Below, piece by piece: positions 7,568 through 15,398 of a DNA stretch of 42,875 nucleotides (position 1 is its first letter; the number at the start of each line of letters is the position of its first letter). A program made the position numbers and the translations under genes. The notes beneath the pieces are model-generated. The model made no database searches. It worked only from the letters and a program-made list of their open reading frames with translations, and was not told the DNA's origin. Source of the stretch: Candidatus Bathyarchaeota archaeon (GTDB lineage: Archaea > Thermoproteota > Bathyarchaeia > Bathyarchaeales > Bathycorpusculaceae); assembly GCA_025059195.1 (NCBI GenBank), contig JANXDU010000005.1, positions 1 to 42,875 of the forward strand. The letters run 5' to 3'.

Positions 7568-8197
7568 TTATCTGTATTTTTCTAGCGGAAGAACTTGCTC
7601 CCTCAACGGTTTTAGGTTTTCTCCACAGTAGGGGCATACGTTAAACCCTGGAAGCACAGGTTTTCCGCACGCAAAGCACATGTTTGGATATTTCAACTTT
7701 TCCTCAAAGTTTTTTAGCTCTCTTTTCAAGTGGCTGAGTTCAGCCTTTATCTTTTCCACGCTTTCATTAAGGGGCTTTATCTCTTTTATTTCAGCTCTTA
7801 TGTTATAGATGACATCTTTAATCTGTGATAGTATTTCGTTGTTTATCTCTATCGTTTCGTTCATAGCGTCTAGGATTTCGCTTTTTTCCTCCAAGAGTTG
7901 GGTTTCAACGGCGCTTTGTTTCTTTGCGTCTGATAGTATTTTGTTTAGAAAGGCTTCCATTGGATTATCGAAGGCTATAGCGCATGTTATACCCCAGAAA
8001 ATGATGGTGGAAGCAGCGGCGGCGAGAAAGTAGATGTTGGGCGTTATCGCTTGAAGCTTCGCCTCTTCAAACGGGTATAGGCGGAGAATTGCCGCCGGCT
8101 TGTTAAAAAACAGCGCTCCGGCCGCGTCGATTAGGTGAGTGGCGGATATTGCGGTTAAGGTGCTGAAGAGCCAGACGCCAAAGCCCTTTTTTGTCAA
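7568..8197 (-). CDS. Membrane-anchored coiled-coil zinc-ribbon protein
   Basis: I do not recognise this 209-residue protein as a named family. Two hydrophobic segments (about residues 7-30 and 50-75) place it in the membrane. They are followed by a long charged heptad-rich stretch (about 85-170, Glu/Lys/Ile/Leu) expected to form a coiled coil. The C-terminal zinc ribbon has CxxC pairs in CFACGKP and CPYCGENL (about residues 174-195). The start is TTG, and an AT-rich TATA candidate (ttaatatttaata, about 8228-8240) lies about 35 nt upstream. It is convergent with gatE (6 nt gap) and divergent from the three-gene paralogue cluster at 8328. The layout suggests a membrane-tethered scaffold; this is inference. 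Confidence 0.8.
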   Translation of the reverse strand: MTKKGFGVWLFSTLTAISATHLIDAAGALFFNKPAAILRLYPFEEAKLQAITPNIYFLAAAASTIIFWGITCAIAFDNPMEAFLNKILSDAKKQSAVETQLLEEKSEILDAMNETIEINNEILSQIKDVIYNIRAEIKEIKPLNESVEKIKAELSHLKRELKNFEEKLKYPNMCFACGKPVLPGFNVCPYCGENLKPLREQVLPLEKYR

Positions 8198-8327
8198 GTG
8201 TATGCCTCGCGCAAGTATATTGCATCTTAATATTTAATACAGTATTCCCACTCCCGAAATATTCCAGACGCGTAAATTCTAAAAGGAGAACCGCCACCTA
8301 CATAATGTGGTTCCGTAGGGTGAGACG

Positions 8328-8813
8328 GTGGCGAAACGTTTAAGCGAAAATTTTTCTATTCGCGTTAAGGTTGGCGAATATGAAGTTGAAGTTAAGGGTT
8401 CTCGCAGCGAAGTCTTAGAAACCATAAAGGAGTTGCCAAGCCTCGTGCCAAGCTTCAGCAAAGCCTTCGAAAGCCTGAAGACAAAGGGGGCGGAGGCGGC
8501 GGTTAAAGCCCCTGTTCCGGCGGCCGCTAGGGCGGAGTCTCCATTGGAGAGGTATCCAAAAATCTCGAAGGTGGAAAGCTGCAGCGAAGCCCTTCTGAGA
8601 GTTTTGGAGAGCGACTGGGGAAAGTGGCGTCCACGGACGGTCACAGAGCTTAAGGAGGCTTTGGCGGCTAACGACATGCATTTCCCGGGGCGGACTTTGG
8701 CGGGAGATTTGTTGGCTCTCGTGCGGAAGGGCGTTGTTAGGTGTTGGAAAACGGATAAAGGTTACGTTTACATTCTAGCTGAAAAGGAGGTTCTAGCCCA
8801 GCAGGGGGAGTAA
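8328..8813 (+). CDS. Paralogue family member A: beta-hairpin/winged-helix protein
   Basis: This is an unknown 161-residue protein, first of three tandem related genes. The N-terminal module (about residues 9-40, IRVKVGEYEVEVKGSRSEV) predicts a beta-hairpin followed by an amphipathic helix. An Ala/Pro-rich linker follows (about 53-72). The C-terminal part (about 83-150) looks like a winged helix, with CSEALLRVLES, an RTVTELKEAL helix and a GYVYIL wing. The C-terminal part aligns well with the gene at 12360-12764: both have Cys-x-x-(hydrophobic) then a Trp-x-Lys-x-x-x-Thr motif and Leu-Val-x-x-Gly. The only start compatible with the upstream in-frame stop (tag at 8316) is GTG at 8328. The stop is 6 nt from the next gene. 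Reality as a gene is well supported; function is not known. Confidence 0.82.
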   Translation: MAKRLSENFSIRVKVGEYEVEVKGSRSEVLETIKELPSLVPSFSKAFESLKTKGAEAAVKAPVPAAARAESPLERYPKISKVESCSEALLRVLESDWGKWRPRTVTELKEALAANDMHFPGRTLAGDLLALVRKGVVRCWKTDKGYVYILAEKEVLAQQGE

Positions 8814-8819
8814 AACCGT

Positions 8820-9293
8820 ATGAAAAGGGTTGAAGTTCGTATCAAGGTGCCTTTCGGCGAAATAGTCATAGAAGGTGAAACGCCTCAAGACATCTTAAGC
8901 CTAATGGAGGCTTTCCCAAAAGACTTTGTGGAAAACGTTTCCAATCTGGTGACAAGCAAAATTGTTCCGTCGGCGGCAGCCCAGCTTAAAGGCATAATAG
9001 AGTTCACCACTGATGGGCCGGTGCTTATAGCCCGTGAGAAACTCACACATTACGAGGCCATTGGGCTAATCCTATACGCTTCAGATGGACGGCAGAACAC
9101 TGCCGCTCAAATCCAGAAGCTTCTCGAATACAGCGGAATAAAATGCATGGTGCCAGCCCGCCTAAACGAGATGGTTAAACGAGGCCAAGTCTTCAAGCCA
9201 GATCCGGGTAGACCAGAGTTCAAGCTGACGGTTCAGGGCGAGAAGTGGATTGAAGAGGAAGTCCTAGCCAAACTTAGAGGGATGATGGCGTGA
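8820..9293 (+). CDS. Paralogue family member B: beta-hairpin/winged-helix protein
   Basis: This unknown 157-residue protein is second of the tandem trio. It keeps the N-terminal module (VEVRIKVPFGEIVIEGETPQ, about residues 4-23) followed by a helix. Its C-terminal half differs from member A but matches member C. Shared features are Pro-x-Leu-Ile then Glu-Lys-Leu-Thr and a Glu (PVLIAREKLTHYEA, about 65-78), a Leu-rich helix, and Arg-Leu-x-Glu-Met-Val-Lys-x-Gly near 115-123, then a wing-like RPEFKLTVQG. It is probably a winged-helix fold. The ATG lies 6 nt after gene A, and the stop overlaps the next gene as GTGA at 9290-9293, so A, B and C should be co-translated. No enzyme motif is visible. 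Confidence 0.82.
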   Translation: MKRVEVRIKVPFGEIVIEGETPQDILSLMEAFPKDFVENVSNLVTSKIVPSAAAQLKGIIEFTTDGPVLIAREKLTHYEAIGLILYASDGRQNTAAQIQKLLEYSGIKCMVPARLNEMVKRGQVFKPDPGRPEFKLTVQGEKWIEEEVLAKLRGMMA

Positions 9294-9802
9294 CCAGCCA
9301 GCAGCAGCCTTTAACAGTTCACGTGAAGTATGGCGACGTGGAGTACACTTTTTCCGGCAGCCTTGAAGAGGTCTGGCATGCTCTGAACCGATTCTTCGCC
9401 GAGCACGCCCCCACGTTTCAGATTGCTAGGACGCTGGTTTTGAATGTCGACTTGCAGAGGCTTGTGGAAGACTGTAGGGGTCTGATTGGGTTTGCAGATA
9501 ATGCGCCGCACTTGCTTGTTCCGAAGGAGAAGCTGACGGACAATGAGACTTTAGCTTTGCATCTCCTAGCCGTCCACCTGGGGTTTAGGCTTGGCATTCT
9601 AAAAACGGATGTGCTTTCGCGGGAAGAGCTTCAAGCGAAGCTTGGCAAAAACCCAAAGATCACTAGCACCCGCCTCGGTGAACTTGTAAAGGCAGGAATT
9701 GCCGAAAAAACAAGCGAGGGCGGATACCGCATGACAAGCTTCGGCCTAGTCCAAATGCAGAGGGAATGGCTTCCAAAAATCAAAGCGAAGCTAGGCTTAT
9801 AA
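9290..9802 (+). CDS. Paralogue family member C: beta-hairpin/winged-helix protein
   Basis: This unknown 170-residue protein is third of the tandem trio. The N-terminal module is present (LTVHVKYGDVEYTFSGSLEE, about residues 8-27). The middle carries the B-like block HLLVPKEKLTDNETLAL (about 74-90). The C-terminal part has TSTRLGELVKAGIAEKTSEG and a GYRMTSFG wing (about 125-155), like the Arg-Leu-x-Glu-x-Val-Lys-x-Gly of member B. The GTG start overlaps gene B's stop by 4 nt, indicating coupling. The stop overlaps convergently by 6 nt with the SPOUT methyltransferase gene on the other strand. A DNA- or RNA-binding subunit is the simplest guess, made from the winged-helix-like pattern only. Confidence 0.82.
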   Translation: MTSQQQPLTVHVKYGDVEYTFSGSLEEVWHALNRFFAEHAPTFQIARTLVLNVDLQRLVEDCRGLIGFADNAPHLLVPKEKLTDNETLALHLLAVHLGFRLGILKTDVLSREELQAKLGKNPKITSTRLGELVKAGIAEKTSEGGYRMTSFGLVQMQREWLPKIKAKLGL

Positions 9803-10411
9803 CTCGCCCTTAAGAAGCCTTTCTTCGTCCTTGACGATTTCATTTGAACAGAGATATGCCACAAGCCTCTGGCTTATGAGGGGTTTTCCATCTCGCAATG
9901 GATAAGCGTATGGAAGATAGACTTCTCCATGCCCGTTGAGCTTCAACGTTAAACCCTTCTTGACGGGTATAGCCTCTAATGGTGTTCCTTCGCTGACAAG
10001 CATCGCCACGTAAACAGCACCATCAATGGAGAACTGCCACCGGCCAATGTGGCGCACCATCGCCTTCGGAAAACGTTTTGTCAAAAGCTTTCTTGTTCTG
10101 CCCTTCGGCGGATGGTCGCCCAAGATCCCACCGACGATAACGGCCTCTTTACCCGCAAAGTCTTCTGGTTTCAGCGGATGCTCAGCCTTTGGGTCTAGGA
10201 TTATGACTTTCCCGTGGTTGAAGATTTCCGCCGCGCTTTTCTCTTCAACCATGCCGAACCTTGAAAGCAGTTGCCATTCGCCCGTCTTTTTGACGTTTGT
10301 GAACATTAGGCGGTCTTTACCCACAATTTCTGATACGTGTTCATATTCAAAGATGAGCCACTTTCCAAGTTCTGGCTCTAGATGTTCAATGACAAAGATG
10401 AGCTTCGTCAC
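9797..10411 (-). CDS. SFM1-like SPOUT methyltransferase (DUF431 family)
   Basis: This 204-residue protein matches the DUF431 / predicted SAM-dependent methyltransferase family, whose yeast member SFM1 methylates an arginine of ribosomal protein Rps3. Visible features are the N-terminal IFVIEHLEPELGKWLIFEYEH segment, a central VIVGGILGDHPPKGRTRKL loop typical of the SPOUT trefoil-knot SAM site (about residues 92-112), and a late block rich in conserved aromatic and Pro residues (VYLPYAYPLRDGKPLIS). The start is GTG. It lies 20 nt downstream of oligoendopeptidase F on the same strand and probably shares its transcript. The substrate in this organism (protein arginine or RNA) is not decided by sequence; a ribosome-related role is inferred from the yeast homologue. 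Confidence 0.83.
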   Translation of the reverse strand: MTKLIFVIEHLEPELGKWLIFEYEHVSEIVGKDRLMFTNVKKTGEWQLLSRFGMVEEKSAAEIFNHGKVIILDPKAEHPLKPEDFAGKEAVIVGGILGDHPPKGRTRKLLTKRFPKAMVRHIGRWQFSIDGAVYVAMLVSEGTPLEAIPVKKGLTLKLNGHGEVYLPYAYPLRDGKPLISQRLVAYLCSNEIVKDEERLLKGEL

Positions 10412-10431
10412 TTTACAGTCGCCTAGTCCAT

Positions 10432-12225
10432 CTAGAAGTTTTGTTTAGCGATTTCTTCCAGTTGTTTTAGGAAGTGTTCATATTGCCCTATGCCTATTTG
10501 CCAGAACTCCTTCTTTGTTGTGTCATAGCCCGCTATCTTGGCTATCTCAGCTGGGGATAAGCTTCCGCCAGCAGCCAGCATCTGCTTCATTTTTGGGACG
10601 AAGGCTTTTTCCTCCGCCAAGTATTTCTGGTATAGTGCGTAAACGAAGAGTTGCGCGTACACGTAGGGGTAATTGTAGAAGCGGAAGTTCGCCATATAAT
10701 AATGTGGTGTGATACTCCATTCGGAGAGCATTTCGTTGAACCATTCCACAGCGTCGCCGTAAACCTTGTCTCGAGCTGCTACCCAAAGGCGGCAAACAGC
10801 CTCATGGCTTAAGTATTCGCCCCGCTTAACAGCGTCGTAGGCGGACTGTTCAAACCACGCGCGGGCTGTCACACTGAAGATCACGCGGCCGGCGCCATCC
10901 AAAACTCGGCAGAGGACTACTTTTCGCTCCGTGTCTGTTTTTGCCTCTTTAAGTAGCAAGTCTGTTAGCAGCAGTTCGCCGAATATGGAGGCTGTTTCCG
11001 CTACAACCATGGGAATCCGCGTGTTCAGCATGGTTTGGCTTCTATAGCAGTAATAGTCGTGAACCGCGTGGCCAAGCTCATGTGCCAACGTGTACAAGTC
11101 GTTGAGTCGTCCGTTAAAGCTTTGAAGGATGTAGGCTGTCTTGCCATTATACCACCCAGCGCAGAAGGCACCATGTTGCTTGCCATATCGTGGCGTAGCG
11201 TCTATGTGCCTTCGCTGGAACATATCTTTCACTGGATAGGCGTATTCTTTGTCGAAGCTTTCGTAAGCTTTTGTGACTAGGTCTCTGGCTTGCTCAAAGG
11301 TGAACTTCATGTCTGGGGCGTCCGGCAGAGGCGCAAGAATATCGTGGCATCCAAGCTTAGGCAAACCCATGAGTTTGGCTTTAAGCCTCAAATAGCGTTG
11401 GTATATGCCAACGTTTTCCTCCACCGCCCTTAGCAAGTTGTCTATGGTTTGCTGGTCTGTGTCGTTCACTATTAGGCTGGCTTCCATGGGCGAGCTGTAT
11501 TTGCGCCACTCGCAAACCGTAAGCCAGTCGTTGCAAATGTTGCGGAAAGCCGAGGCGAAAACTTCACCGTCTTTGCCGACGAGGCTGAAAACCGCCTTGT
11601 AGGCGGATTCGCGGGTCGCCCTGTCTGGATGCGAAAACAAGCCATAAGCGGCGCCAAAGGGCAGAAGCTTCTTTTCACCTTCAACTGTCACTTCGAACGT
11701 TCGAGTGTTAAGCCATTTGGCTTGAAACTCCTCCCAAGCGTAGACGCCAAACTGGTCCTTGTCAATTATGAGTTTTTCTTCGGTTTCTGAAAGCTGGTGG
11801 GGAACCATCCGCCGAAGCTTTTCAAGATAATGCCTGTAATTAGCTAAGGCTGGATCCGCTAGGAGTTCTGGCTTGTCGTAAACGAGTCTGCCCACCTCCA
11901 ACTCCAAGAAAGCCAAAAGTTTGCCAAGTTTGGCCTCAAGCTTCATCGCTCTATCATGAAGCTTTTGGGTTTCAGGCAAAGTCATGTTGGCCGCAAAAGA
12001 AAGCTCAGCAAAAAGAGTTACATCACGCAGCCTAGCCAAATAAGCCTCATACTCTTGAAGACACTTCGCCAACTCCGCAGCTGTTAAACTGCCAATTTTC
12101 CCATGATATTTGGCGGCAAACGCCTCAGCCATCGCCGACACTTCGTCCATGGCTTTCTGCACAGAAGCATCCGAAACGCTTGGAAAAATTTCAGATAGAT
12201 CCCAAACAACTTCGCCTCCAATCAT
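10432..12225 (-). CDS. pepF: Oligoendopeptidase F (M3 metallopeptidase)
   Basis: This 597-residue zinc metallopeptidase of family M3B degrades oligopeptides in the cytoplasm. The N-terminal helical domain covers about residues 1-200 (WDLSEIFPSVSDASVQKAMD). The catalytic domain carries the zinc motif HELGH within YTLAHELGHAVHDYY near residue 390, and the third zinc ligand Glu in VVAETASIFGELLL about 25 residues later. The expected Tyr/His-rich C-terminal substrate segment (SITPHYYMANFRFYNYPYVYAQ) follows. There is no signal peptide. Length is normal. It is preceded by a 134-nt gap downstream of the wHTH gene at 12360-12764 and followed 20 nt later by the SFM1-like gene. The call is secure. Confidence 0.96.
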   Translation of the reverse strand: MIGGEVVWDLSEIFPSVSDASVQKAMDEVSAMAEAFAAKYHGKIGSLTAAELAKCLQEYEAYLARLRDVTLFAELSFAANMTLPETQKLHDRAMKLEAKLGKLLAFLELEVGRLVYDKPELLADPALANYRHYLEKLRRMVPHQLSETEEKLIIDKDQFGVYAWEEFQAKWLNTRTFEVTVEGEKKLLPFGAAYGLFSHPDRATRESAYKAVFSLVGKDGEVFASAFRNICNDWLTVCEWRKYSSPMEASLIVNDTDQQTIDNLLRAVEENVGIYQRYLRLKAKLMGLPKLGCHDILAPLPDAPDMKFTFEQARDLVTKAYESFDKEYAYPVKDMFQRRHIDATPRYGKQHGAFCAGWYNGKTAYILQSFNGRLNDLYTLAHELGHAVHDYYCYRSQTMLNTRIPMVVAETASIFGELLLTDLLLKEAKTDTERKVVLCRVLDGAGRVIFSVTARAWFEQSAYDAVKRGEYLSHEAVCRLWVAARDKVYGDAVEWFNEMLSEWSITPHYYMANFRFYNYPYVYAQLFVYALYQKYLAEEKAFVPKMKQMLAAGGSLSPAEIAKIAGYDTTKKEFWQIGIGQYEHFLKQLEEIAKQNF

Positions 12226-12359
12226 AACCGTTCACCACCTACACACGGAACACCAAAAGTAGGCAACGACGGAATTTAAGCCTTAATCCACGGTAGGGTG
12301 GAGATCTTGAAAGCTAGTAAAATCTCGCCAAAAATGGTTGAAAGTCTAGCTAAAAATTA

Positions 12360-12764
12360 CTATGGTGGCCTTTTTTGGGCGTATTGGTATCTGCGGGGTT
12401 TTCCGTCGCGTGTGAGTATGCCGTCTTTGACTAGGTCGATTAGTGCGTGGGCTACCGCCGTTCTATCGTAGTGGTATCCTCGTTTTGCCATTTCCGTGTG
12501 GACTTCGCTTAGGGTTTTTGGCGTTTTGAACCATCCTTCCTCCCAGAGTTTTTGGATAATGCTTTTACATGTTTCTGCTCTTGGTGGTGGGGGTGCGCGT
12601 TCAGCTATTGGCGTGGTGGGCGCTTGTTTTAGTTTTTCTGTTATTGTGGAAAGGATGCGGTCTACGGCCGATTGTAGTTGGTCTTCTTGGCATTCTATTT
12701 CGATTTCTATTTCGCCTATTCGCATTTTTAGGCGGATGGGTGGTTTTGTGCTGTTTTGTGTCAA
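12360..12764 (-). CDS. Paralogue family member D: beta-hairpin/winged-helix protein
   Basis: This unknown 134-residue protein is a distant copy of member A. The N-terminal module (PIRLKMRIGEIEIEIECQED, about residues 8-27) is followed by a helix, a Pro-rich linker (about 48-63), and a C-terminal winged-helix-like part (about 66-130). That part contains CKSIIQKLWEEGWFKTPKTL, AVAHALIDLVKDGIL and the wing RRYQYAQ. The Trp-x-Lys-x-x-x-Thr-x-x-Glu pattern and Leu-Val-x-x-Gly match member A. The TTG start has an aggtga ribosome site 6 nt upstream. It diverges from the NurA-HerA operon across a 92-nt intergenic region and is upstream of pepF on the same strand. It may regulate or partner one of these, which is untested inference. 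Confidence 0.8.
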   Translation of the reverse strand: MTQNSTKPPIRLKMRIGEIEIEIECQEDQLQSAVDRILSTITEKLKQAPTTPIAERAPPPPRAETCKSIIQKLWEEGWFKTPKTLSEVHTEMAKRGYHYDRTAVAHALIDLVKDGILTRDGKPRRYQYAQKRPP

Positions 12765-12813
12765 TTTTTCACCTTATTGAATATTGAATTGCGCATCTTG
12801 TTCATGCACAACA

Positions 12814-12821
12814 TTTATATA
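12814..12821 (+). promoter_or_regulatory. TATA box of the NurA-HerA operon
   Basis: The sequence tttatata lies in the 92-nt divergent intergenic region. It would place transcription start near 12841-12846, about 15-20 nt before the GTG at 12860. Its reverse complement could also serve the divergent gene at 12764, about 50 nt away. Confidence 0.6.
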
Positions 12822-12859
12822 CCTCTTCCGCTCAAACAACTGCATGTTGGTGAATCTTG

Positions 12860-13951
12860 GTGATTGAACAATACACTATAACAACAACATCAAAATATAA
12901 TTTTCCACAAAACCCCATAGACACCGCACTTCCCCAACGATTCATAGAACTAAGCCTCCACTCGCTCAAGCAAGTACAAAACCAAACCATTCAACTAAAC
13001 CAACAAACCATTCAACAACCACTCAACAGCCAAGAAACCCTCATCGCCCAGCAGTCAAATCCGCCAACCCTTCCCATACCATTAATCCCGAAACCAGAGC
13101 CGCCAACCACTATAGCCGCCGTAGACACATCCAGCATAAAACTCGGTGAAACAAGCAAAGGCATAATAGTCGCCGTCCGCGGGACCACCGTATGGAAAAG
13201 AGCCAAAAACTATGCTTACCTACGGGTTGGCCCCTTCATATTCCACATAACCGAAGACAACATTCAAGAAGTCTACAACGCCCTACTGAAGGCGTATTTT
13301 CCAGAACAAAATCCGCAAGCGTCGCCGGGCTTCCTCCAAATTCCGGTGCGAATGGCAAACCTATTGGAACGGTGGCTGCAATTCTCCTTAGCCAAAACCA
13401 TGAGCAACAGCTTAATCCTCTTCGATGGTTCTTTAACCGCTGGAACCCCCGACACACCGGCTCATCAGCTTAGGGAAATTTTGGCGACTGCCAGAAGCAT
13501 GGGCAACACAGTTTTAGCGTTCACAAAAGTGACGACACTACGGTTTAACGGTTGCCTATTAACGGAAGCCTTTCCAGCTTATAGGCCGCCCTGCCTAATA
13601 GCGGTAGCAAACATCAAGCCAAAACCGCCTTTAACGCTTTTGGGCGAAGTTCACGTGGCGAAACTAGCCAGGGGCAATTATGCCTTCCGTCTAGACATAG
13701 ACCGCGAAGTCCCAGCTCCAAAACGCGTGGAAGCCGTTGAAAGGCTTTTGGGAAATGATTTGATAACGCAGGGCTATCCGGAAACACTTCGGCTGGCGCA
13801 TATACTGTGCACTTTCACGGCTAACGAGGTTATAGCTATGCAACATTTCATCCAGCACCGCTACCGCCTAAAAATCATCGATCGCCCGGACATGCATAGG
13901 CTTTTGTTTGGGCCCTTTGGAAAGGGGGAAATCCACCATGAGATTGTATAG
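12860..13951 (+). CDS. nurA: NurA 5'-3' nuclease-domain protein
   Basis: NurA is the nuclease that works with the HerA translocase in DNA end resection. This 363-residue protein shows the first acidic metal ligand in IAAVDTSS (Asp near residue 89). A second catalytic block is LILFDGSLTAG (about 190-200), followed later by TKVTTLRF and the C-terminal LAHILCTFTANEV segment. HerA lies directly downstream with a 14-nt overlap, the canonical partner order. The first ~80 residues are unusual, being rich in Gln, Asn, Ser and Pro and apparently disordered. TTG at 12857 is also possible, but GTG at 12860 sits 7 nt after a ggtg ribosome site. Family call is good; the N-terminal extension is the odd point. 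Confidence 0.88.
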   Translation: MIEQYTITTTSKYNFPQNPIDTALPQRFIELSLHSLKQVQNQTIQLNQQTIQQPLNSQETLIAQQSNPPTLPIPLIPKPEPPTTIAAVDTSSIKLGETSKGIIVAVRGTTVWKRAKNYAYLRVGPFIFHITEDNIQEVYNALLKAYFPEQNPQASPGFLQIPVRMANLLERWLQFSLAKTMSNSLILFDGSLTAGTPDTPAHQLREILATARSMGNTVLAFTKVTTLRFNGCLLTEAFPAYRPPCLIAVANIKPKPPLTLLGEVHVAKLARGNYAFRLDIDREVPAPKRVEAVERLLGNDLITQGYPETLRLAHILCTFTANEVIAMQHFIQHRYRLKIIDRPDMHRLLFGPFGKGEIHHEIV

Positions 13952-15398
13952 GAAAGAGGGCAACATAATAGAGATCCTAAGCTTTCCAAACGAAAACGTA
14001 GAGAAGGGCGACTACCTTCTTATAGAGAACGGGGAATCCCAAAAGGCGCTTATAGCCCAGGTCATAGACGTGCAGTTCGCCAACATACCCGGTGTTTTAG
14101 AGGAACTTCTGCGAAGCCTTCCAGACGGGGGAGGCTTAATTCAAGGCGAAGATGTGGATCCTCTGGAAATTGCACCCCACATAACGTATATCCAAGATTC
14201 AAGGCTTTTAATTTGTAAAATCCGCGCCACCGTGGAAGGCGAAGCCTTAAGCCCAAGCACTTCGTGGCTTCCTTCGCGGTCGCAGTCTTCGGTTAGGAAG
14301 CTTCCCATCTCCATGCTTCTTAAGCTTGCAAGAGTTGACGGCAACCTTCCCATAACACTAGGCGTAACAAAAGAGAATTCCCTTTTAACCATAGACGCTT
14401 CCTCGCTGGATGGACGGCTAAACATTATTACGGGAAAAAAGGAGACGGGCAAGTCTCACCTTTCAAAGCTTTTGATCACAAGTCTCCTTCAGTATAAGGC
14501 TGTGGTGGTTGTTTTAGACTTGAACGGTGAATATGCTGGTTTGGGTTTAACATCTGACGGAAAACGCAACGCCTACTACAACAAAATCCACGTTTTAACG
14601 CCTTCGCAAAACTTTAAGGTCGCCCTAAAGCAGCTCCACCTAAACGTTATATTAAATATTCTCATTCACGCCTTGCATTTGCCGGGCACCTCCGCCCGAG
14701 AATTCCGTCGAATATGGCAGTTTCTAAAAGAAAAAGACAGCTTAACGTTGCACGAGTTAGGTGAGGCTATTCGCAACTGGAACTGCAACCAAAACGTGCG
14801 CGATGCGCTTTTCAGCCGCTATTACGCGTTGGTGAATTCTGGCTTTTTCACCGACAACCCGGCGGAGGCCACTTTGCTGGAGGAGTGCCTAATTAAGGCG
14901 AGGGAGGAGGGCGGCGCCATAATCGTTAATTTGCGGAACACTTCGCCCATAGACCGCCAAATAGTCGTTGAATACGTTTTGGGCAAGCTTGTCGAGCTTT
15001 TGACAAGCTGGAGGCTTAAAGCTGTTTTCCTATTCGCCGAAGAAGCCCACCTATATTTACGTGAAACCTATTGGGACGACGTTGTGACGCGGATGCGTCA
15101 CTTTGGAATATTCACAACCTTTATAACAAACCAGCCGGACACCATCCGCGAGAACATTTACCGCCAAGCCGACAACATATTCCTATTCAACTTCACCAAC
15201 GAACACGATTTGGAAGTGGTTTCCAGAGCAGCACGCGTGGACGCGGAAACTGTCAAATCCATAGCTCGCGATTTGCCGCCGCACCATTGCCTTGTGCTGG
15301 GCAAAGTGGTTCGAGATTTTCCAATAGTCGTTAAGGTTCGGGCTTTAGACGTCAAAACCATGGGCGAAACAAGGCTCTTCTTTAAAGAAGTTAACTAA
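13938..15398 (+). CDS. herA: HerA-type DNA translocase ATPase
   Basis: HerA is a hexameric FtsK/VirB4-like ATPase that pumps DNA for NurA (and Mre11-Rad50) during end processing. The 486-residue product has an N-terminal HAS beta-barrel (about residues 1-100). The Walker A GKKETGKS is at 166-173, with the following VVVLDLNGEY strand. A Walker B region FLFAEEAHLYL lies near 365-375 with Glu where Asp is usual, and a sensor-like TTFITNQPDTI is near 395. The C-terminal DLPPHHCLVLGKVV region is typical of the family. The frame opens upstream at TTG 13908, but the ATG at 13938 has a strong aaggggga ribosome site. It overlaps nurA's stop by 14 nt. Confidence 0.92.
   Translation: MRLYRKEGNIIEILSFPNENVEKGDYLLIENGESQKALIAQVIDVQFANIPGVLEELLRSLPDGGGLIQGEDVDPLEIAPHITYIQDSRLLICKIRATVEGEALSPSTSWLPSRSQSSVRKLPISMLLKLARVDGNLPITLGVTKENSLLTIDASSLDGRLNIITGKKETGKSHLSKLLITSLLQYKAVVVVLDLNGEYAGLGLTSDGKRNAYYNKIHVLTPSQNFKVALKQLHLNVILNILIHALHLPGTSAREFRRIWQFLKEKDSLTLHELGEAIRNWNCNQNVRDALFSRYYALVNSGFFTDNPAEATLLEECLIKAREEGGAIIVNLRNTSPIDRQIVVEYVLGKLVELLTSWRLKAVFLFAEEAHLYLRETYWDDVVTRMRHFGIFTTFITNQPDTIRENIYRQADNIFLFNFTNEHDLEVVSRAARVDAETVKSIARDLPPHHCLVLGKVVRDFPIVVKVRALDVKTMGETRLFFKEVN

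Follow-up and report, generated by a model that had tools for sequence, protein, structure and literature searches.

Four small genes, which we call A, B, C and D, lie next to a nurA-herA pair in Candidatus Bathyarchaeota archaeon (GCA_025059195.1, contig JANXDU010000005.1, positions 1 to 42,875; this whole stretch of 42,875 nucleotides is referred to as the window), and this raises the question of what such a family of proteins might do there. NurA-HerA is a known DNA-end-resection enzyme of archaea, and the A-D locus is most likely its regulatory, perhaps accessory, apparatus. A previous sequence-only reading of this DNA had grouped A to D as one family and had favored a nucleic-acid-binding heteromer, but it overlooked the near-invariant link to nurA-herA and an operator-like array between D and nurA, both of which are more telling on function than the fold. 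The genes concerned are:

8328 to 8813, plus strand: gene A, 161 amino acids, with an N-terminal beta-beta-alpha module (N-module) and an A/D-type winged helix.
8820 to 9293, plus strand: gene B, 157 amino acids, with an N-module and a B/C-type winged helix.
9290 to 9802, plus strand: gene C, 170 amino acids, with an N-module (residues 8-39), a second short hairpin (66-75), a winged helix (84-148) and a C-terminal helix.
12360 to 12764, minus strand: gene D, 134 amino acids, with an N-module, a variable linker and a winged helix.
12857 to 13951, plus strand: nurA, matching PF09376 with 28.4 bits against a cut-off of 21.
13938 to 15398, plus strand: herA, matching the HerA central domain PF01935 with 55.6 bits against 23.2 and carrying the Walker A motif GKKETGKS.

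D and nurA-herA point away from each other in the window, 92 bp separating D from nurA. Our survey of this layout covered 80 loci from Bathyarchaeia and 20 from other classes (G, L, f and g below designate genomes, loci, families and genera of the compared set). The recurring order is gatD-gatE-A-B-C, followed by D in convergent orientation and then by nurA-herA pointing away from D. In all 27 Bathyarchaeia loci holding both genes, D stood head-to-head with nurA across a common promoter, which is the layout of a divergent regulator, and the same was seen in other classes; in L179-L181, the divergent genes that had been overlooked by phmmer turned out to be NurA and HerA according to Pfam. The HerA Walker A motif is invariant and the PF09376 score of NurA reaches 82 bits in homologous loci, while HerA itself is diverged, with scores of 20-40 bits that fall short of the NCBIfam HerA equivalog cut-offs of 800-970. 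The space between C and D varies: close relatives of the window have an SFM1-like gene and pepF there, and in other loci C and D may lie tail-to-tail, with an overlap of up to 10 nucleotides. Where D is missing (L195-L202, from other orders of the class and from family f22), the genes form B-C-C(-A)-nurA-herA arrays on one strand, often with overlapping ends, as in an apparent operon. Since B-C-C(-A) share strand and array with nurA-herA in these loci, the tie of A, B and C to nurA-herA does not depend on D.

The region that D and nurA share contains the following elements:

12765 to 12856, no strand assigned: promoter region shared by the divergent D and nurA genes; it is conserved throughout the order, and its half-sites across classes.
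12789 to 12811, no strand assigned: operator-like array TTGCGCATCTTGTTCATGCACAA of three TTGnnCA half-sites, the sole match in the window's genome at up to one mismatch.
12814 to 12821, plus strand (nurA direction): TATA-like box TTTATATA, immediately following the array.

The TTGnnCA half-sites of this intergenic region follow a direct period of 9 bp and make inverted pairs at spacing 0 or 3. Their density was 28.4/kb in the D/nurA promoter versus 2.0/kb in the remainder of 45 loci (14-fold), 82 half-sites were observed versus 15.8 ± 4.6 in dinucleotide shuffles, and 34 inverted pairs at spacing 0 or 3 were located within the promoter versus 1 outside of it in 578 kb. In other classes, such half-sites, mostly at spacing 3, are again found directly upstream of a TATA box. 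When the triple-site pattern was searched in 61 whole genomes with one mismatch allowed, exact triple sites occurred once per genome and lay at the D/nurA promoter, apart from a single exact match elsewhere (in G031), and one-mismatch matches were scattered over the genomes. The D/nurA promoter thus has the conserved operator expected of an autoregulated divergent regulator. A search of the conserved intergenic region against Rfam returned no known RNA, and the promoters of D-less B-C-C-nurA-herA operons that we checked had no TTGnnCA half-sites. Since the array accompanies D and not nurA or B/C, D is the best candidate for the protein binding to it. The winged helix of D has a near-invariant recognition-helix region (HYDRTAVAHALxDLV) and wing (PRRYxYxQKRPP), and no other part of D is as conserved across classes as this recognition-helix region (0.87 versus 0.52 for the N helix), as would be expected if it went with a fixed target sequence.

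Considering these observations, we lean, with some caution, towards a reading in which A to D are dedicated to NurA-HerA, with D repressing the D/nurA-herA promoter through the array and with A, B and C as paralogous partners in the same circuit. Archaeal transcription factor B (TFB) contacts the B recognition element (BRE), which is located beside the TATA box. We infer that D would occupy the TTGnnCA array of the D/nurA intergenic region, where it would cover the BRE/TATA region and shut the promoters of both genes: the last half-site abuts the nurA-direction TATA box and, on the opposite strand, the array is located between this same box and the start of D, so that, judging from this anatomy, a bound protein should block both promoters. 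Feedback would then hold NurA-HerA levels until some signal, perhaps DNA damage, releases them. Through the N-module, A, B and C would probably associate among themselves and with D; their part in the D circuit would be that of co-regulators or of accessory NurA-HerA subunits.

This proposal presupposes that the four proteins are related. Open reading frames A to D have the coordinates first proposed for them, D being on the minus strand, and the tight A-B-C coupling was also confirmed, with a gap of 6 nucleotides between A and B and an overlap of 4 nucleotides between B and C; this B/C overlap is also present in 36/56 Bathyarchaeia loci. We compared the N-modules using profiles that included members from other classes, with 20 column-shuffled profiles and a reversed profile as controls. 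The scores (A-D 40.6, C-D 34.1, A-C 33.3, A-B 24.4, B-C 23.8 and B-D 19.9) all exceeded the reversed profile and the best of the 20 shuffled controls (maxima of 12.9-14.9); the A-D, C-D and A-C links are strong, and the weakest link, B-D, has an hhalign probability of 38%. The N-modules are therefore related, as the sequence-only reading had proposed, rather than unrelated folds. Its division of the C-termini into two sub-types was upheld as well, with probabilities of 98.5% for A-D and 98.8% for B-C versus 2-37% for the cross pairs; the A/D and B/C C-termini have little in common beyond a generic winged helix. Comparing the N-module with the N-terminal barrel of HerA showed nothing in common, and only one other protein of the compared loci plausibly contains this module (L190 8697-9188).

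The AlphaFold2 model of C (predicted local distance difference test score, pLDDT, of 88.6) consists of a hairpin (8-23), a helix (25-39), a second hairpin, a winged helix (84-148) and a long C-terminal helix. That of D is of low confidence (pLDDT of 67.8), with a hairpin (10-25), a helix (27-46) and a helical helix-turn-helix (66-113); at its N-terminus, two strands and a helix follow one another as in C. The winged-helix nature that had been suggested for these proteins agrees with the model of C and with weak but consistent Pfam matches: PF03965 in 29/30 and PF02334 in 24/30 D members, and PF25213 (HVO_A0261_N winged helix) in 40/53 C members. The window's own proteins remained below the gathering cut-offs, with D at 20.3 and A at 14.2 for Penicillinase_R/BlaI (PF03965; cut-off of 22.6), D at 16.9 for the replication terminator protein (RTP, PF02334; 26.7) and C at 18.3 for HVO_A0261_N (35). 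No curated family in Pfam, NCBIfam or PADLOC matched A, B, C or D at cut-off, so that the Pfam and NCBIfam searches gave no well-characterized family to account for each gene separately. Sequence searches of the PDB with A to D found no related solved structure, a match between the D profile and SERCA (E of 0.08) being discarded as chance; Foldseek searches with the C and D models gave no match at E of 0.001, and a search for viral relatives of D and C found none.

That A to D are real genes follows from their full-length homologs across the order. Among 151 sampled genomes of this order, B was present in 130, the widest retention of the four, D in 103 and A in 67, and strong C matches (E < 1e-20) were found in 98. 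Both D and C extend well past the class: in the phylum, D was detected in 93/349 and C in 120/349 genomes. On these sequence comparisons, A to D make up an undescribed, phylum-wide family of small proteins. One genome has a stop-containing D-like fragment between C and an intact D (G024:C22:106655-106768), a decaying duplicate. An apparent separation of D and nurA by 196 kb in G395 was rejected as a scaffolding artefact: the single contig G395:C1 (L206, L207) was apparently scaffolded in the wrong order, with a run of N cutting D just past its N-terminal codons in L206 and with the two parts of D lying 196 kb apart.

If D served NurA-HerA, the two would be expected to be lost together. In the 151 genomes, D and NurA were both present in 98, D alone in 5, NurA alone in 3 and neither in 45 (phi coefficient of 0.88, without phylogenetic correction), and all 8 discordant genomes contained stop-containing copies, remnants, weak matches or contig-end fragments. 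The distribution of HerA follows the same pattern. In G238, the loss of D/nurA-herA is in progress: its decaying locus (L205, G238:C40, 1733-2560) has a HerA fragment joined to a D with an in-frame stop, and nurA is deleted. Since D and nurA are adjacent, a joint deletion would yield the same co-loss, so that an unlinked C is a better test. In genus g11, where C and nurA are on different contigs or 92 kb apart (G446), C was retained in 7/9 NurA-positive and in 0/21 NurA-negative genomes.

Other promoters of the family were also inspected. Upstream of A, most close relatives and, in part, family f2 share one more element:

8270 to 8288, plus strand: conserved box GCGTAAATTCTAAAAGGAG, perhaps the A-B-C operon promoter.

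In the D-less loci L195-L202, TTACGT / ACGTTACGT repeats occupy the place of the missing D-type array in the promoters of the B-C-C-nurA-herA operons (10 observed versus 0.36 expected in the set checked), and are possibly a B/C operator.

Several points weigh against the favored reading. The TTGnnCA array is absent from the Bathyarchaeia ABC promoter (3.7/kb), so that D probably does not regulate this promoter. The co-loss of D and NurA could come from single linked deletions, and the co-occurrence statistics are uncorrected for phylogeny. Six genomes (G043, G056, G266, G327, G396 and G401) have C without a D or NurA match, and B is retained almost independently of NurA (phi of 0.08 in the 151 genomes), from which it follows that B, at least, has another role.

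We therefore weighed other explanations. A to D may be physical accessory subunits of NurA-HerA (a DNA-end sensor, loader or clamp) more than regulators, with an array that only autoregulates their own synthesis. The apparent B-C-C(-A)-nurA-herA operons, seen in several orders and in family f22 with a subunit-like gene order and overlaps, and the way in which C tracks NurA without linkage in g11 are what this predicts, but several lineages have NurA-HerA without C (such as G037, G045 and G046), others have C without NurA, and characterized NurA-HerA resects DNA ends without such proteins (PMC4351679, PMC5715905), so that we consider it rather unlikely. Alternatively, D alone may be the local autoregulator of nurA-herA, with A, B and C being functionally unrelated transcription factors that merely share its ancestry and neighborhood. 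The retention of B without NurA would fit, as would the different promoter motifs upstream of ABC and of the D-less operons; this is nevertheless distinctly unlikely, given that A/B/C are inside the nurA-herA operon where D is missing and that the convergent ABC/D layout is kept across classes. Less probable still is that A to D form a DNA-binding hetero-oligomer through their N-modules that would be a physical part of NurA-HerA, the array serving as a loading or nucleation site in cis besides being an operator. Finally, slow drift of gene order alone, leaving a frozen ancestral neighborhood with no functional tie, might be invoked because gatD-gatE, which have no obvious link to DNA repair, are also in the conserved neighborhood of 45/48 loci, but it is hardly credible when rearranged loci, divergent or operonic, keep nurA-herA with B/C, when the co-loss with C in g11 is unlinked and when the operator is single-copy.

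A dedicated NurA-HerA regulator D, with A, B and C in its circuit, thus remains the reading that we prefer. It offers a candidate dedicated regulator together with an operator that occupies a single place per genome and is kept across classes, which can be tested with one protein and a 92-bp DNA, and it would give several conserved "hypothetical" families a common identity and a likely role.

Other neighboring genes can be mentioned here. A coiled-coil protein with a C-terminal zinc ribbon is encoded at 7568-8197 (minus strand) of the window, and many genomes of the same family keep it in the interval from gatE to A. An extra conserved gene of about 235 amino acids (RLSWERLCxxLVxYLNA...) separates D from B/C in families f28 and f33 (L180 7763-8467 and L181 7891-8604, minus strand). 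The HerA homolog at L180 3565-6156 (minus strand) contains an intein (PF14890, E of 2e-16), and the similar length of that of L187 suggests the same.

How does this locus compare with known systems? For the C model, a centromere-binding protein of plasmid pNOB8 (PDB 4rs8) came second in Foldseek, with a template modeling (TM) score of 0.70 by target length, but with E = 0.007 and a match confined to the winged-helix part. For the D model, ZapA came second, at an E of about 1 that is not significant, and there was no Pfam ZapA match; the N-terminal head of ZapA has a similar hairpin plus helix. Given the low-confidence D model, Foldseek is uninformative for D. The BlaI/penicillinase-repressor and RTP families (PF03965, PF02334) share the general winged-helix fold with D members through weak matches, but they do not have the N-module, and A and D of the window score below their curated cut-offs. 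Among the anti-phage HerA systems of PADLOC, no partner effector was found here: HerA alone matched, weakly, and neither A to D nor NurA did. The sequence-only reading had recognized no described system with this layout, and indeed we found no published description of one in the open literature; a list of top-priority uncharacterized archaeal proteins does not describe the A-D family either (PMC6393860). Our search of the open literature on HerA and NurA with Thaumarchaeota or Bathyarchaeota turned up few papers, and those listed included no report on the A-D family or on resection control in Nitrososphaeria/Bathyarchaeia-type archaea, whose control of DNA-end resection appears undescribed so far.

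In thermophiles, nurA-herA are usually in an operon with mre11 and rad50 (PMC4351679). The locus studied here has the same two core enzymes, adjacent and co-directional, but an undescribed winged-helix family accompanies them, in divergent orientation or in an apparent operon, and HerA is diverged. In Sulfolobales, the HerA operon was reported to be under the control of TFB3 (PMC9905601), a dedicated transcriptional control of the kind proposed here; however, TFB3 is a TFB-like factor acting on several operons, whereas our candidate is a small winged-helix protein with an operator at one place. NurA-HerA is the known part of this locus; what is new is the A-D winged-helix family, which takes the place of a known regulator.

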